This document shows positions 4,387 through 40,527 of a DNA stretch of 40,616 bases, one piece after another. Position 1 is the first letter of the stretch; every line of letters starts with the position of its first letter. Origin of the DNA: a virus; the IMG/VR virus record IMGVR_UViG_3300050821_005689, positions 1 through 40,616 of that record. One strand, given 5' to 3'. Under the pieces are notes generated by a model. It was not told the origin of the DNA. It did no database searches and saw only the letters and a list, made by a program, of their open reading frames with translations. The position numbers and the translations under genes are program-made.

Positions 4387-6184
4387 ATTCCCGCTAGCCA
4401 AATTCAAGAAATTTCTATCGTATCTCAAGATCAACTCACGAGATTACGGTCGCGTCCCGTTCCGTCTACTCGGAAGCCAACGATATGCTTTAGACGAGGT
4501 GGTGAAGGGTATTAACGACGGAATCACTACCTTCGTGATTTTGAAGGGTCGAGGTGGTGGTATAACAACACTTTTTATAGCTGTAGATTTCTTTTACGCC
4601 ATGCGCACCCGAGGTCTGCTTGGAACCTTCATCTTGCACGAGGAAAAGGCGCTAGAAAAATGGCGAGCCATCATCGAGTTGTTCGTGGATTCTATGCCGA
4701 ATTTCATCATAGACGGCGGTCGAAAGATAAAGTTTAGACCTAAGATCATCAAACATAACCGAAACCTTTTGATGCTCTCTAATGAGTCGTCGTTCTCGTA
4801 TCTCACGGCGGGAGTTGACGAGAATCGTAGCGGAGGTCTAGGCCGATCGCAACACACAAACTTTGTTCACTCAACGGAGACGGCTTTCTATGGCAACGAC
4901 GAACAACTCAAAGAATTTAAATCTTCGGTCTCGCATTTATACGAGTACAGACTGCAAATTTATGAATCAACTGCAAATGGATTTAACCACTATTATGATC
5001 AATGCGAGGACGCAAAAACCTCACAAACGATGCGATTCATTTTCATTGGATGGTGGCGCGATGAAAGAAACCAATTCCATGTCAGAGACAAAAGATTTCA
5101 ACAATTCGTACCAAATAATAAGATATCAGTATTAGAACGTCAGAGAATTCGTGCAGTTAAAGAACGATTTGGTTTTGAAATCAGTTTGCAGCAAATAGCT
5201 TGGTACCGATGGAAACTCGTTGACGAGTTTAACAACGACCAAACGACGATGGATCAAGAATTTCCGTGGACAGAGGATGACGCTTTTCAAGCGACAGGTG
5301 CAAAGTATTTCCAGTCTCCAACTCTGACTCAGTTATACAGAGCGGCCCATAAAATTCCATTTGAAGGATATCGGTATCACATGACTCGGCGATGGGAAGA
5401 CACAAGCGTAACGCAAGTTTCCCGTTCGGGAGACGCGCAATTGAAAGTATGGGCGCATGCTTCAAGGTTCGGATATTATGTCGTCGCCTGCGATCCGGCG
5501 TATGGTTCGAGTGACGATGCGGACAACTTTCTGATCCAAGTTTGGCGCTGCTACTCCGAGGGGATAACACAAGTCGCCGAGTTCGCATCGCATGACCTTT
5601 CCTACTACCAGTGCGCATGGATCATCGCGCATCTCGCCGGCTTCTACGGTCGCAAGGACGTTCGCGTTATCATCGAGATAAACGGCGCTGGAAAGGCAGT
5701 GTTCCGCGAGCTTATGGAATTGAAGCACGACCTTGCCATGATGCCGTCACGAGGTTCCGACGCGGAGTTACGCAAGTGCCTCGACAACATGAAACATTAC
5801 TTTTACAGCCGAGTCGACACAATGTCGGGCGAGCTAGCATATCAATGGATAACGTCGGATGATCGCAAGCGGGAGATAATGGCGAGGTTCAAGGACGCCA
5901 TAGAGTTGCAGAAGATGCACGTGTGTTCCGTTCCGATGATCGCCGAGATGCAGCGGCTTGTGAATGACGCCGGATCGATCGCGGCCGACGGCGCCGGCAA
6001 TGATGATCGCCCTGTGACGGCGGCGCTCGCGTGGGAATGCTACAGCAAATGGTTGCGACCAATCCTCGTTGGTGAAGGAATGACGCGCGCTGCCGCAGAG
6101 AAGATAGACGCTCGCGGCGGCATTGAACCGATAGACCGACTTGTGGTCAACTACTTGAAGCGATCAAACATCAAGGTGGCGTGA
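4349..6184 (+). CDS. terL: Large terminase subunit (packaging ATPase-nuclease)
   Basis: The 611-residue protein drives DNA packaging and cuts the concatemer. In the ATPase half, a divergent Walker A is LKGRGGGITT (about residues 65-74), the acidic Walker B-type pair is HSTETAF (E near 177), and a coupling motif is ESTANGF (about 207-213). The nuclease half has YYVVACDPAYG (Asp near 382) and VIIEINGAG (Glu near 443), as in RNase H-fold terminases. The Walker A Lys/Arg arrangement follows the 'KxRxxGxT' form of many phages. The start at 4349 has AAGGA 5 nt upstream, and an in-frame ATG at 4310 is the alternative. The first half is visibly more AT-rich than neighbouring genes, suggesting mosaic origin. 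Confidence 0.92.
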   Translation: MSRMSMKTGQVAKFPLAKFKKFLSYLKINSRDYGRVPFRLLGSQRYALDEVVKGINDGITTFVILKGRGGGITTLFIAVDFFYAMRTRGLLGTFILHEEKALEKWRAIIELFVDSMPNFIIDGGRKIKFRPKIIKHNRNLLMLSNESSFSYLTAGVDENRSGGLGRSQHTNFVHSTETAFYGNDEQLKEFKSSVSHLYEYRLQIYESTANGFNHYYDQCEDAKTSQTMRFIFIGWWRDERNQFHVRDKRFQQFVPNNKISVLERQRIRAVKERFGFEISLQQIAWYRWKLVDEFNNDQTTMDQEFPWTEDDAFQATGAKYFQSPTLTQLYRAAHKIPFEGYRYHMTRRWEDTSVTQVSRSGDAQLKVWAHASRFGYYVVACDPAYGSSDDADNFLIQVWRCYSEGITQVAEFASHDLSYYQCAWIIAHLAGFYGRKDVRVIIEINGAGKAVFRELMELKHDLAMMPSRGSDAELRKCLDNMKHYFYSRVDTMSGELAYQWITSDDRKREIMARFKDAIELQKMHVCSVPMIAEMQRLVNDAGSIAADGAGNDDRPVTAALAWECYSKWLRPILVGEGMTRAAAEKIDARGGIEPIDRLVVNYLKRSNIKVA

Positions 6185-6830: not shown

Positions 6831-8596
6831 TTTTACCGACAGACTGGAACGCCCTGACGGAAGCCGTTTCGTACCTGATCGGCCGCTGTCTCTCGACGCG
6901 AGAAGATCGCGACAGGCTTTATCAATGGCGTGAAAAATACTATTTGTTCGGAACCACGGGTTATGAACAATCAAAGTACAATAAGCTAGCGGCTCATCTC
7001 GATCTTGTTTCATCGTTTTTGTATTCTCCGGACCATGCGTTTTATCACATCGCGGCAGACCGCAACGCGAGCGATCTCGACGTACAGAAAACTATATCGC
7101 TTCAGGACGATTTCAACGATGAATTCCAGGCCAACGGCGCCGAGTTGTTGGCAGAGGCGATTAAATGGTCTCTGATCTATGAGGCGATGATACCAAAATT
7201 GGGATGGAATAGAGACCGCGGTCACTGGTTTATAGAATTGGTTCCGCCTCACAATTTCGGAGTATACCGGGAATCGGTAACAGACCTCGATAGCCAGGAA
7301 TGTTTCGCTCACACGTATTTTATGGATTATCAGAAAGCTTGCGGGAAGCTTATGCTATCCGGGAAAGAGGACGAGATTAAAGATTTGACTATAACGCACA
7401 CGGACGCGATAGCTCCGTTTCCTCAGATGCTACAGAGAATGATCATTTCCGGGACTGGCGGGTCAAACCTTGCCGGCACCATCTTCGGGCAGATGAATCC
7501 AGACTACCTTCCATCGCCTGTGTATCAGCCTAAGACGGAGGTTCCTCTTGTCAGGTTCACTGAACTATGGGCTTGGGATGACTCGTGTATGGATTGGCGG
7601 GTTTTCAACATGCTTGAACCGGACATTTTAATCTATGACAGCAAAATTGAAATCGAGTCATACAAAAAGGCAACCCGTAACGTTGAATATCTATTCGGGC
7701 GACTCAAAAAGATGGGAAAGGACACGTCAGATTGCAATCCTTTCTTTCCCGAAGAACATCCCTTTGAGATTATCCGCCCGTATCAGAAATTCAATTATTT
7801 TTGGGGTCAGGCTCATATCGATGCGCTGGTGTATCTACAAGAGTGGTACTTGGAACGCCTCGATCAGATATCCGATATGTTGGAAAGCCAAGCCGATCCG
7901 CCGCGAGTTGGTTCCGGATTCCTCGGCCTCAACGAAGAAAAGATGCAAGCCTTCGGAGCGGCCGGAACCTATCTTTTTGACTCTCTACCCCAAGCGAAGA
8001 TGCAAACCTTTGCGCCGGAAATGCCGCCAGACCTGTTCGCCGAGGTTAAAGAGATATCGAACCTATTCTTGGAGGCAAGCGGGCTTACCGAAGTTATGGC
8101 CGGCCGGTCCGAACAGGGCGTTAGGTCACGGCAACACGCTAGCGAGCTTAAGAAGAGTGGTAGCGGACGAATTAAGAAAGCGGCCCTTGCGATCGAGGGC
8201 CCGTTAGTGCGCCTCGGCGACAAGGCGGTTAAGCTTAAGCAGGCGCACGACCCTAAAACCCTGAAAGCTGGACCGGATGAAAACGATCAGGTGCACGATT
8301 TCTTTGCGGCTGATGTGAGAGACCCGCGCATAAGAATCGACGGGCACTCACACTCGCCATTGTTCGGTGACGAGGCCGAGGGAATGGCCGTCCTCTTGAA
8401 GCGTTCGCAGGCGATCGACAACGAGGATTTTATCCGCATGTTGAACCCGCCGGCTCGTGACAATCTGTTGCACGCCCTGGCCAAGCGCGAACGCAACCAG
8501 AAAAAAATGATGAAGAAACTTGAGGCAACAGACCCGGCCGGTTTTTCCAAGATGCTCGAAGGCGGCCATGGGGGAGCTAGCCACAAGAAAAAATGA
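6827..8596 (+). CDS. Portal protein
   Basis: The 589-residue protein follows the terminase and precedes the scaffold and capsid genes, which is where the portal is expected. It begins at GTG overlapping the previous stop (GTGA), with AAAGG 8 nt upstream. The portal forms the dodecameric ring at one capsid vertex through which DNA enters and leaves and to which the tail attaches. The stretch around residues 320-375, with long charged helices and an ESQADPPRVGSGFL turn, and a basic C-terminal helix ending HGGASHKKK fit podovirus-type portals. The call depends on size and order as well as similarity. Confidence 0.8.
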   Translation: MILPTDWNALTEAVSYLIGRCLSTREDRDRLYQWREKYYLFGTTGYEQSKYNKLAAHLDLVSSFLYSPDHAFYHIAADRNASDLDVQKTISLQDDFNDEFQANGAELLAEAIKWSLIYEAMIPKLGWNRDRGHWFIELVPPHNFGVYRESVTDLDSQECFAHTYFMDYQKACGKLMLSGKEDEIKDLTITHTDAIAPFPQMLQRMIISGTGGSNLAGTIFGQMNPDYLPSPVYQPKTEVPLVRFTELWAWDDSCMDWRVFNMLEPDILIYDSKIEIESYKKATRNVEYLFGRLKKMGKDTSDCNPFFPEEHPFEIIRPYQKFNYFWGQAHIDALVYLQEWYLERLDQISDMLESQADPPRVGSGFLGLNEEKMQAFGAAGTYLFDSLPQAKMQTFAPEMPPDLFAEVKEISNLFLEASGLTEVMAGRSEQGVRSRQHASELKKSGSGRIKKAALAIEGPLVRLGDKAVKLKQAHDPKTLKAGPDENDQVHDFFAADVRDPRIRIDGHSHSPLFGDEAEGMAVLLKRSQAIDNEDFIRMLNPPARDNLLHALAKRERNQKKMMKKLEATDPAGFSKMLEGGHGGASHKKK

Positions 8597-8668
8597 GTGG
8601 TAGCCTCGGGGCGTCGCTCGACCCGTCCGGGGGGACGCCCGGACAGAGAGCAGAATGGAGCAAACATC

Positions 8669-8749
8669 ATGAACATTAAGGCAGAGATTGCCGCCCGCGA
8701 GGCGGCCATTCGTTCCCGCCGAGGCAAGCGCCGGCATCGCCGTCGGTAA
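8669..8749 (+). CDS. 26-residue arginine-rich micropeptide
   Basis: An ATG with GGAG 8 nt upstream opens a 26-residue frame: an amphipathic start (MNIKAEIAAREAAI) and an extremely basic end (RSRRGKRRHRRR). It sits alone between the portal and a terminator hairpin at 8785-8810. The peptide could bind DNA or RNA, condense DNA, or be a virion component, but no family is recognised. A second Arg-rich micropeptide lies at 30581-30670. It is too short for statistical gene finding, and the ribosome site is its main support. Confidence 0.55.
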   Translation: MNIKAEIAAREAAIRSRRGKRRHRRR

Positions 8750-34143: not shown

Positions 34144-34456
34144 GTGGTCTCACCATCTCGAATTCGTCGTCGAAGGGGGGCGCCGTTCCGGCCGGCCGCC
34201 AGTGGTGGCAGCGGCGCGTCTCGAATGTCGGCGGCACGATGCCTTGAAACATCGGGCGAGCCTGATTCGTTATCTGGTTGACTTGCATCGCCTGACTCGG
34301 GATGGGCGGATTGTAGAGGCACCAACCGGCCCAAGGATCGTTGTTCTTCGGTTCCTCGTTGACGCGCTCGAACCAAAGGCACGTTCCGCAGTCCCCACGC
34401 TTCGCCTTATGGCCCTTCGGCGCGGGACGGATAATTTCCTTGCTGCTTTCGTTCAC
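34130..34456 (-). CDS. Four-cysteine protein beside recT
   Basis: The 108-residue protein contains CGTCLWFERVNEEP, WCLYNPP and RRCHHWRPA, which is a CxxC followed by two single Cys residues. This matches the layout of the 39006 and 3703 proteins and suggests a zinc or iron-sulfur site. It starts at GTG overlapping the recT stop (GTGA). Its place in the recombination operon hints at a DNA-related role, but no function is known. Confidence 0.65.
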   Translation of the reverse strand: MNESSKEIIRPAPKGHKAKRGDCGTCLWFERVNEEPKNNDPWAGWCLYNPPIPSQAMQVNQITNQARPMFQGIVPPTFETRRCHHWRPAGTAPPFDDEFEMVRPHGKE

Positions 34457-35391
34457 TTTCCTAGTTCCCTCTCTGCTTGTTCGACGACCGGTCGCAGGCT
34501 TTCAAGAAACGGCCTTATTGAGTCGTACTGCGATTTTTTGAGGCGCTTGCAGAACGCCGAAAAGGTGTCCCGTCCGCGCTCGGCGGCCATGCGCGCCTCT
34601 GTCTCTAATCCAACGGGCGCCATCAATTCCGCGGCCGTTGGCGTGTTGCTTGTGTGATTTGGTTTGATCACCTCCCCCTCGATCATCACGCCCTTGTCGG
34701 GATGAATCCACGAGTGCTCGCCGCGTTCCTCGTGCGCTTCCTCCATGACGGCCGCCATTTGGTACACGTTGAGAGGCATGTCGCGACGGAGTCGACGCTT
34801 AGCCGTCTTCTCGCACATGGCCGGGAAACCGATCGCCGGGTCTCCCCAAGGGGGTTTGCTTCCTTGGGGCGACTTGGCCTTGACCGCAAGCAACTCGTCT
34901 ATGGAAAGCACGCGGACGGCCGGCGGGCGATCGTTGCTTGCCGCCTTGGCCCAAGCGGCAATGATCCTGCGATCGGACTCGCCGCCGAGTTTGCGCACGT
35001 GCTCGACGTACCCTCGACCCTCATCGAATTCGAACCCGTCCCCCTCGCGCACGACGCGGCCGGTTATCGTCAGCTTGGCGCGAGCGGCAAGCGTGGTGTA
35101 TCCAAGGTAGCCGATGATCGGTTGCACGACCTCCCGGTTATTCTTGGTGTCCCCGAACGGGACAAGGAAGCCCTGCCCCGTCACCCCATCGACCTCCAAT
35201 CCCAACACGGCGAACGTCATCGCCGCGTTGAGCAGAGTTTGACGGTCACACTTTAAGAGGCGCGGGTTTCGATCGCACGAGACGATGACGGTTCGGACCA
35301 TGCGCTCGACCGGCATCGTCTTGCCAAGCACCTCGGCGAATATTGGAGCGAGCGGCTTTAGTTGCTGCTCGAACAAGACCAAATCATTCAT
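34453..35391 (-). CDS. recT: RecT-family single-strand annealing protein
   Basis: The 312-residue protein anneals complementary single strands during phage recombination, working with the exonuclease at 35648. The RecT core is visible as QTLLNAAMTFAVLGLEVDG (about 65-83), GQGFLVPFGD, then VVQPIIGYLGYTTLAARAKL (about 105-124). A conserved-looking PPWGDPAIGFPAMCEKTAKR follows. The C-terminus is charged and helical. It overlaps both neighbours by a few bases. This is one half of the classic two-gene recombination set, beside the RusA resolvase nearby. Confidence 0.9.
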   Translation of the reverse strand: MNDLVLFEQQLKPLAPIFAEVLGKTMPVERMVRTVIVSCDRNPRLLKCDRQTLLNAAMTFAVLGLEVDGVTGQGFLVPFGDTKNNREVVQPIIGYLGYTTLAARAKLTITGRVVREGDGFEFDEGRGYVEHVRKLGGESDRRIIAAWAKAASNDRPPAVRVLSIDELLAVKAKSPQGSKPPWGDPAIGFPAMCEKTAKRRLRRDMPLNVYQMAAVMEEAHEERGEHSWIHPDKGVMIEGEVIKPNHTSNTPTAAELMAPVGLETEARMAAERGRDTFSAFCKRLKKSQYDSIRPFLESLRPVVEQAERELGK

Positions 35392-35557
35392 CGTCCCAAT
35401 CCTCTTTCACGGCCACGAACACCAGAGCGAGGCCGATGACCATCCATCCCCAAGCGGCGCCGAAAATTTCTCCGACGCAGATAGCGACGATCAGGAATCC
35501 GGCAATGAACGTCCAACCCGCCACGGCCTTTCGTTCGTCTTGTTCCCCGGTGCTCAT
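35384..35557 (-). CDS. Small two-span membrane protein
   Basis: The 57-residue protein has two hydrophobic helices: residues 13-33 (AGWTFIAGFLIVAICVGEIF) and 34-51 (GAAWGWMVIGLALVFVAV). The ends are charged. The stop lies inside the start of recT, so it is coupled. Its start is preceded by GGTGATCAT. It could be an early membrane effector. No family is recognised. Confidence 0.6.
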   Translation of the reverse strand: MSTGEQDERKAVAGWTFIAGFLIVAICVGEIFGAAWGWMVIGLALVFVAVKEDWDDE

Positions 35558-35561
35558 ATGA

Positions 35562-35651
35562 TCACCATGGTATGTCGATGAAGAAAATCAGGATGGTGGC
35601 GACCGCGACAAGCGTAATCGCAATCCAAGCCTCGCGTTGTTCTTCTGTCAT
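35562..35651 (-). CDS. 29-residue membrane micropeptide
   Basis: The peptide has a charged start (MTEEQREAWI) and one hydrophobic helix (AITLVAVATILIFFIDIPW). GAGGGGATCAT precedes the ATG, a near-perfect extended ribosome site. Its ATG overlaps the exonuclease stop (ATGA). It belongs to a run of very small membrane genes between exo and recT. The role is unknown. Confidence 0.55.
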   Translation of the reverse strand: MTEEQREAWIAITLVAVATILIFFIDIPW

Positions 35652-36568
35652 ATGATCCCCTCTACTAGCTCTGGCGGTGGCGGAGGTGGTGACAAGCGAT
35701 CGGGAATGTAGGGCACGATGATTCGACCCCTCCCCGATCGCCTGATTCGGTAGTTGACGCCGCACGGCAAAAGCACCTTCTCGTTGTCTTTCGCCAGGGC
35801 GAGCAATTGAGCCTTTAACGCTTGCGCAGAGCGCTCGTTGAAGCGCCAATCGTCGTCGAATTTCTTATAGTCCGACACCATCGTCATGGTCGCCAGGTGC
35901 GCTCGATCGTTCGACAGATCGAGCACCTTTTGAGGCGTTGGCGCGTAGAGGCGGTTTAGCAGCGGCAACTCTATAGAGGACCCGAATGGATCGGGGGCTG
36001 GCCCATCATCCAAGCGACGGAAAAACTCGTTAGACTCACTAATGAGTGCATCATGAAGATCAGGAATAGGGCGCCGCTCAAAATAGTGCATATCAGCGCA
36101 TACCCAAACAGCAATAATCCCCCACGAATATATGTTGGGATTGTCTTGCTCTCCGTCACCGACCAACATTTGTGTTTGGAGTTGTATTTCATATTGACGT
36201 GGGACATCGGCGCCTCCGTTCCAATTTGTCATCCACGAGTGATAGTCAAACACGCACTTTATTTCGAGGGCACCCGGTCCTCGATCAGGGCACACAATAA
36301 GAGCGTCGCGAGTGGCGCCGAGACGAGCACGACGAAAATAGCTATCGCCAACATTGGGAACCACCTCCATTTTTTTGTCTTGCGCGACTTGCTCGATGAT
36401 TAGCGGCTGAAGCTTCTTGCCCCAATTCATGCGGGGGTCGCCATCGCGCTCGACCTCCATGCCACTCTTGAATTTGTGATAGAGCATCCAGTACGTTAAC
36501 GAAGGATTGGCATTGAACAGCGCCGAGGCTTCGGTCGCGCTAATCGTTGTCTTTGTGGAGTCTGGCAT
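35648..36568 (-). CDS. YqaJ/lambda-type exonuclease
   Basis: The 306-residue protein resects double-stranded ends to give the single strands RecT uses. The nuclease core is visible: RLGATRDALIVCPD (Asp near 88), GALEIKCVFDYH (the E-x-K pair near 102-104) and RQYEIQLQTQMLVGD, the QxxxQ helix of YqaJ-type recombinases. An N-terminal substrate-recognition part (TISATEASALFNANPSLTYW) matches family expectation. GAGG lies 6 nt before the ATG. The sequence around 36050-36300 is more AT-rich than its surroundings. Confidence 0.88.
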   Translation of the reverse strand: MPDSTKTTISATEASALFNANPSLTYWMLYHKFKSGMEVERDGDPRMNWGKKLQPLIIEQVAQDKKMEVVPNVGDSYFRRARLGATRDALIVCPDRGPGALEIKCVFDYHSWMTNWNGGADVPRQYEIQLQTQMLVGDGEQDNPNIYSWGIIAVWVCADMHYFERRPIPDLHDALISESNEFFRRLDDGPAPDPFGSSIELPLLNRLYAPTPQKVLDLSNDRAHLATMTMVSDYKKFDDDWRFNERSAQALKAQLLALAKDNEKVLLPCGVNYRIRRSGRGRIIVPYIPDRLSPPPPPPELVEGII

Positions 36569-39802: not shown

Positions 39803-39879
39803 TGGTTGCGGGGGCAGGATTCAAACCTGCGACCTTCAGGTTATGAGCCTGACGAGCTATCGGGCTGCTCTACCCCGCA
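39803..39879 (-). tRNA. tRNA-Met, initiator type (anticodon CAT)
   Basis: This 77-nt cloverleaf carries CCA in the gene. Stems: acceptor TGCGGGG/CCCCGCA, D-arm GAGC/GCTC, anticodon arm TCAGG-CTCATAA-CCTGA, T-arm GCAGG-TTTGAAT-CCTGC. Initiator marks are A11:T24 in the D-stem and the same length and D-loop pattern as bacterial initiator tRNA. Unlike the classic form, position 1 is T (pairs with A72), and the third pair of the anticodon stem is A:T rather than G:C, as in rhizobia. D-loop G19 is A and T-loop C56 is T, a matched change. It lies among the leftward early genes. Confidence 0.85.
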
Positions 39880-40044: not shown

Positions 40045-40527
40045 CTACAGTCGAAAGGTGAGGTTGCGCTCGCCACGCTTCTGGCGCTGCCCCTCAATCT
40101 TCGGTGGCTTGGGTTCGAGCGCCTTTGCGAAATTCTTGCGCAGCGCCGCCAGGGAGGACTCAAGAGCGCTCAACATCCGCTCTACCTGCGGTTCGTCAAA
40201 CAGATAGCTCGTTGTGTTCGCCAGGTGACCTATGCCGCGCATCGCGTCCAAGGCGTTCGATGCCCGTATCGAGGCTAGCCTCGTGAATGACTCGCGCTTC
40301 TCTTGATCGGTGCGCTTATTTGTCGCACGAACGTCTGCCGTGGCTGTACCGCCAGCGCCGCCGCTGTTTTCGTCGTTCATAGCGGCGTTGAGCAGATTGC
40401 CGCCGTTTCCGGTGAATTGGTTGGGGTCGATTACTCCAACCGTTTCCCCTGCGTGCTCGTGCGCCATCTGAGAGACTGTCCGATTATCGTCCTCGTCGTG
40501 CTCCCGCGCCTTTCCCTTTACCGCCAT
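40045..40527 (-). CDS. First early gene: charged coiled-coil-like protein
   Basis: The 160-residue protein starts MAVKGKAREHDEDDNRTVSQ. The first half is acidic and disordered, and the second half is helical (TRLASIRASNALDAMRGIGH, then VERMLSALESSLAALRKNFA) with a basic Lys/Arg end. AGGAG and the first three codons are part of the duplicated leader. It probably opens early expression. The function is unknown. Confidence 0.7.
   Translation of the reverse strand: MAVKGKAREHDEDDNRTVSQMAHEHAGETVGVIDPNQFTGNGGNLLNAAMNDENSGGAGGTATADVRATNKRTDQEKRESFTRLASIRASNALDAMRGIGHLANTTSYLFDEPQVERMLSALESSLAALRKNFAKALEPKPPKIEGQRQKRGERNLTFRL

Follow-up and report, generated by a model that had tools for sequence, protein, structure and literature searches.

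A phage-borne initiator-type tRNA gene with A19-U56 in place of G19-C56 at the elbow

Many phage-carried tRNA-Met or tRNA-fMet genes have been annotated (PMC12429752), among them initiator-type tRNAs of the Komagataeibacter phages phiKX1 and phiKX2, Caulobacter phages, Sinorhizobium phage phiLM21 and mycobacteriophages. A hallmark of initiators is a run of three consecutive G:C pairs at 29-31:39-41, and the E. coli initiator has C1xA72, with no strong Watson-Crick pair at 1:72 (PMC7949028). At the tRNA elbow, the 19-56 pair presents a flat face for stacking by the ribosome, RNase P and further RNA and protein partners (PMC4810234). The tRNA-Met genes of phiKX1 and phiKX2, the closest of these that we read, retain both G19-C56 and C1/A72, unlike the phage tRNA described here. 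In cellular tRNAs G19-C56 is so nearly invariant that comparison reveals little of the constraint on it; phage tRNAs, however, include natural variants compensated at 19-56 as well as at 18-55, in which the pairing is conserved and the letters are free.

Here we report an intact gene for an initiator-type tRNA on a 40,616-base IMG/VR virus record with linear ends, the whole of which was analysed (hereafter the window). Genes for a terminase, a major head protein, an endolysin, RecE/RecT and a RusA-like resolvase identify the contig as that of a tailed phage, and the carrier of the tRNA is a soil-type phage; a DNA similarity search of INPHARED with window positions 20000-40616 returned no match. 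The only tRNA in the window, tRNA-Met(CAU), was found by ARAGORN and by the Rfam covariance model RF00005 (64.7 bits, cut-off 29, E 5.7e-12), and no other RNA family reached threshold anywhere in the window. The covariance-model detection recommended with the original prediction thus recovers the tRNA, and the letters given there for positions 19, 56, 1 and 72 are all correct, on a minus strand that had gone unstated. The gene reads TGCGGGG TA GAGC AGCCCGATA GCTC G TCAGG CTCATAA CCTGA AGGTC GCAGG TTTGAAT CCTGC CCCCGCA A CCA; a residue 17a shifts the numbering, such that gene positions 20 and 57 correspond to standard positions 19 and 56 (Table 1).

Table 1. Positions in the window of the tRNA gene, its diagnostic residues and its neighbours on the same strand.
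Feature	Position	Strand	Remarks
RecT-like annealing protein and RecE-like exonuclease	34453..36568	-	Strand shared with the tRNA
Initiator-type tRNA-Met(CAU), 77 nt, 3' CCA encoded	39803..39879	-	ARAGORN; RF00005, 64.7 bits
CCA end, encoded	39803..39805	-	
A72	39807..39807	-	
U56 (gene position 57), T-loop	39823..39823	-	Neighbour G57 at 39822
Anticodon loop CUCAUAA, canonical	39841..39847	-	Anticodon CAU
A29	39850..39850	-	Pairs with U41 at 39838; anticodon stem AGG/CCU, not GGG/CCC
A19 (gene position 20), D-loop	39860..39860	-	Neighbour G18 at 39861
A11	39869..39869	-	Pairs with U24 at 39855; this pair marks the D-stem of bacterial initiators
U1	39879..39879	-	Formal pairing with A72 at 39807
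160 aa ORF, upstream of the tRNA	40045..40527	-	Without family match

The assignment to the initiator class, as first proposed, is borne out by the CAU anticodon in a CUCAUAA loop, the A11:U24 pair of the D-stem and the encoded CCA. The anticodon stem AGG/CCU provides two of the three hallmark G:C pairs, the third position being A29:U41, but 30 of the 31 closest bacterial initiators that we read share this stem; it is therefore a natural variant and no ground for exclusion from tRNA-fMet. A19-U56 replaces G19-C56 with pairing preserved, and G19-C56 is in any case a general tRNA feature rather than one that defines initiators. In a comparison with initiators from 200 genomes within a single bacterial phylum, the closest bacterial tRNA-fMet, CGCGGGGTGGAGCAGCCCGGTAGCTCGTCAGGCTCATAACCTGAAGGTCGCAGGTTCAAATCCTGCCCCCGCAACCA (L345-L347), was identical at 72 of 77 positions, sharing with the phage tRNA all stems, the anticodon loop, AGG/CCU, A11:U24 and CCA. 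Where the bacterial gene has C1, G9, G19-C56 and A57, the phage tRNA has U1, A9, A19-U56 and G57; the five differences (C1U, G9A, G19A, C56U and A57G) are all transitions and leave the four stems undamaged. The best named relatives of the tRNA are the tRNA-Met genes of the Komagataeibacter phages, at 90.4% identity. Elsewhere in the window, an ORF at 1574-2083 on the minus strand matches the GcrA cell-cycle regulator (Pfam PF07750, E 8e-16), a family typical of Alphaproteobacteria, and gives a hint both of an alphaproteobacterial-type host and of interference with host cell-cycle transcription. Taken with the AGG/CCU initiator type and the similarity to the Komagataeibacter phage tRNAs, the GcrA-family ORF indicates that the source was probably an alphaproteobacterial-type initiator gene, and on the best reading the tRNA was recently acquired from a bacterial initiator.

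The original prediction took the matched change at 19 and 56 as a sign of selection on structure, not of decay, and this is upheld by the behaviour of viral tRNAs picked without regard to the state of the partner position. Among the matches listed for a T-arm pattern with T56, A19 is present in 68 of 79 viral tRNAs and G19 in eight; after clustering of this set at 85% identity, which is the sole control for kinship in these tests, 48 of 59 clusters have A19 exclusively, and about 20 anticodons are represented. The reciprocal exchange behaves likewise, T19 accompanying A56 in 15 of the 17 viral tRNAs listed, each its own cluster. In 1236 viral tRNAs unselected at either position, G-C was counted 1186 times, A-T 21 times, T-A five times and C-G once, the remaining ∼23 being non-standard or unassigned at 19/56, and the two positions are strongly associated (Fisher p 4e-37, with sequences treated as independent). 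Apparent C19/C56 and T19/C56 mismatches turned out to be largely A18G19 loops with G55 and were reassigned. A19-U56 is thus a rare but recurrent phage variant, found in 1-2% of viral tRNAs and in many isotypes, and comparison across these tRNAs indicates that the 19-56 pair is kept by compensation. Strong as the coupling is, it has exceptions: A19 occurs with C56 in L010 and L012. A search of open-access papers turned up no A19/U56 in phage tRNAs, which does not by itself establish that the variant is new.

Initiators with A19/U56 are themselves found on at least four independent viral contigs (L002, L003, L304 and L333) and on one prophage-like contig (L008), and phage initiators with the reverse pair, U19/A56, on L339 and L425. 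The five A19-U56 genes share with the phage tRNA the elbow pair and the initiator signatures but differ in the T- and anticodon stems, and at 1:72 have U:A (L304, L333), U.U (L002, L003) or A.C (L008); like L339, their contigs are unrelated to the window outside the tRNA. This recurrence also bears on whether A19 or U56 could be a sequencing or assembly error, a concern insofar as the gene was read from one metagenome contig only. We find this explanation barely credible: matching errors at both positions are unlikely to coincide, and the independent contigs L002, L003, L008, L304 and L333 carry the identical pair.

Bacterial genomes present a different picture. A T56 pattern found no intact tRNA in 200 bacterial genomes, its single match being a degenerate, sub-threshold tRNA-like sequence, whereas the corresponding C56 pattern matched more than 100 times across 50 bacterial genomes. 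When initiator D-loops with A19 were sought in 84,980 species, each represented by one genome, only five matches were obtained, and just one of these, L008, is A19/U56. As the L008 tRNA adjoins DUF2303 and S24-repressor genes, the locus is prophage-like and was dropped as a cellular counterexample. The other four candidates were also set aside: L009 realigns to G18G19, L010 and L012 are both A19/C56, and in L011 the gene is broken. The L011 break, at about 577-616 of an actinobacterial MAG contig, follows the anticodon arm and is perhaps an insertion or an assembly junction.

Within the phage lineage, we compared 49 viral records that were reached through RecT or the major head protein. A tRNA match of any kind was seen in eight of them and exceeded the family cut-off in seven, but only L020 has another initiator; the initiator tRNA is therefore accessory and not essential to the lineage. 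L020 is the nearest phage relative (DNA ∼77% identical, major head protein closely similar), and its initiator, at 7685-7761, has G19/C56 and U1.G72 in contrast to the A19/U56 and U1:A72 of the phage tRNA. Relatives with only one of the two changes, which would have told against a matched exchange, were looked for: L020 has neither, and T56 without A19 is uncommon. The L020 gene also occupies a different site, between regions matching window positions 8749 and 8840 and adjoining sequence homologous to window 8602-8749. Given the difference in both position and 19/56 state, this lineage has acquired or relocated initiator tRNAs more than once.

That the tRNA is missing from nearly all relatives and has five changes with respect to the nearest bacterial gene is what one might expect of a captured gene, functionless in the phage, that is drifting to loss. 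Set against this are intact stems, CCA and initiator signatures, a compensated tertiary pair and a high covariance score, and five changes in 77 positions would strike both 19 and 56 with a chance of 0.003 (∼0.09 for any pair); we therefore consider decay distinctly improbable. Another origin to be weighed is that the tRNA is the att site copy of a temperate phage, restoring the host initiator gene upon integration. tRNA genes are common att sites (PMC12429752) and the tRNA-Met of phiKX2 adjoins an integrase; however, no integrase was found among the large ORFs tested in the window. The tRNA gene is, moreover, complete, and two of its departures from bacterial initiators (positions 56 and 57) fall in the 3' half, where identity would be expected, making this a very remote prospect.

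In our view the gene probably encodes an intact and functional initiator of alphaproteobacterial-type source, carried as an accessory and with a compensated elbow that would be largely neutral. A phage, most likely of an alphaproteobacterial-type host, would have taken up a bacterial initiator gene, which now sits as an accessory on the minus-strand side with the recombination genes; the structural genes are on the plus strand, opposite to the tRNA. No promoter-like site was found near the tRNA on the minus strand, which tells against a functional gene; the gene may be transcribed together with the other minus-strand genes. Host enzymes would then take over, RNase P for processing, MetRS for charging and Fmt for formylation, U1:A72 being a weak end pair; with IF2 the tRNA would enter the P site and enlarge the host initiator pool during infection. 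Use by the host machinery is the simplest account, as all parts required of an initiator are present. Comparison shows that the 19-56 pair is kept Watson-Crick, G19-C56 having become A19-U56 through a compensatory exchange that recurs in phage tRNAs of many isotypes, and if elbow recognition reads the stacked pair and not its letters, the swap should be mostly neutral. In human mitochondrial tRNA-Ser, A19:U56 or C19:G56 rescues the activity that is lost when G19-C56 is broken, and A19:U56 brings back aminoacylation (PMC10412605), which supports tolerance of a matched swap and shows that integrity of the pair matters rather than its identity. A neutral compensated change under relaxed constraint is accordingly the leading explanation, and the lesson from this tRNA is a modest one: it is an initiator of ordinary appearance whose elbow is rare but recurs.

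Two functional proposals of the original prediction find no support. The anticodon nucleases treated in eLife 2023 (PMC10264068) cut the anticodon loop, and the phage tRNAs that evade them are changed at or near the cleavage site; such changes are absent here, the loop CUCAUAA being identical to that of bacterial initiators, and resistance to cleavage by host anticodon nucleases is therefore not indicated. The favouring of phage starts fares no better: the loop is canonical, and the A-U swap spans many isotypes and is not specific to initiators. There is no support for A19-U56 as a special weapon of the phage. A broader adaptive case can be made, in which the altered elbow, while still accepted by the ribosome, escapes a defence enzyme or host factor that recognises the G19-C56 face. 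The apparent enrichment of A19-U56 in viral tRNAs, compared with one degenerate T56 match in 200 bacterial genomes, would fit such an escape, as would the matched change of the second contact, 18-55, described below. On the other hand, the occurrence of both A-U and U-A forms in many isotypes is what relaxed compensated drift predicts, most tRNAs of the same phages retain G19-C56, and our analysis identified no elbow-reading antiphage nuclease; on balance we regard escape as unlikely.

The second elbow contact shows a parallel pattern. In the same tRNA set, the D-loop is A18G19 in all 31 viral tRNAs with G55, as against 5 of 1375 with U55, and the G55 tRNAs have TGC or AGC in the T-loop. From these loops, A18 with G55 would be a matched replacement of the G18-U55 contact, and the site of pseudouridine-55 would disappear with it. 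An equivalent G55 pattern had two matches in 200 bacterial genomes, neither of them recognised as a tRNA. Six to eight phage initiators are of the G55/A18G19 type (L405, L424, L432, L434, L444, L463, L232 and L243), and the combination is also seen in many tRNAs of L169 and others. It is conceivable, though we would not expect it, that host factors read the matched phage elbows (A19-U56, U19-A56 and A18 with G55) differently, making the phage tRNA pool distinguishable from that of the host during infection; if so, that pool might, for example, be shielded from elbow-reading enzymes or bypass pseudouridine formation at position 55. With such natural variants one can test directly whether a given elbow-binding factor recognises the shape of the contact or its sequence.

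Several relatives of the window phage (L100, L101 and L071) have a tRNA-Gln(TTG) instead of an initiator, which suggests that tRNA cargo is variable in this phage group.

Finally, the paired T1:A72 end had been singled out as a departure from bacterial initiators, but this aspect loses its significance on wider comparison. U1:A72 is able to pair, if weakly, and is the commonest 1:72 state among 185 viral initiators (49, followed by C.A in 35 and U.U in 32); it is also present in the bacterial initiators L376 and L377. We thus ruled it out as a special feature and see in it no sign of anything unusual. Nearly every weak 1:72 combination can be found among the viral initiators, with G:C (five) and C:G (one) rare and in part parsing artefacts. 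On the minus strand of L425, near 5620-5690, the initiator-like tRNA with U19-A56 combines G:C at 1:72 with C.A at 2:71, as though the mismatch at the end had shifted inwards by one pair.
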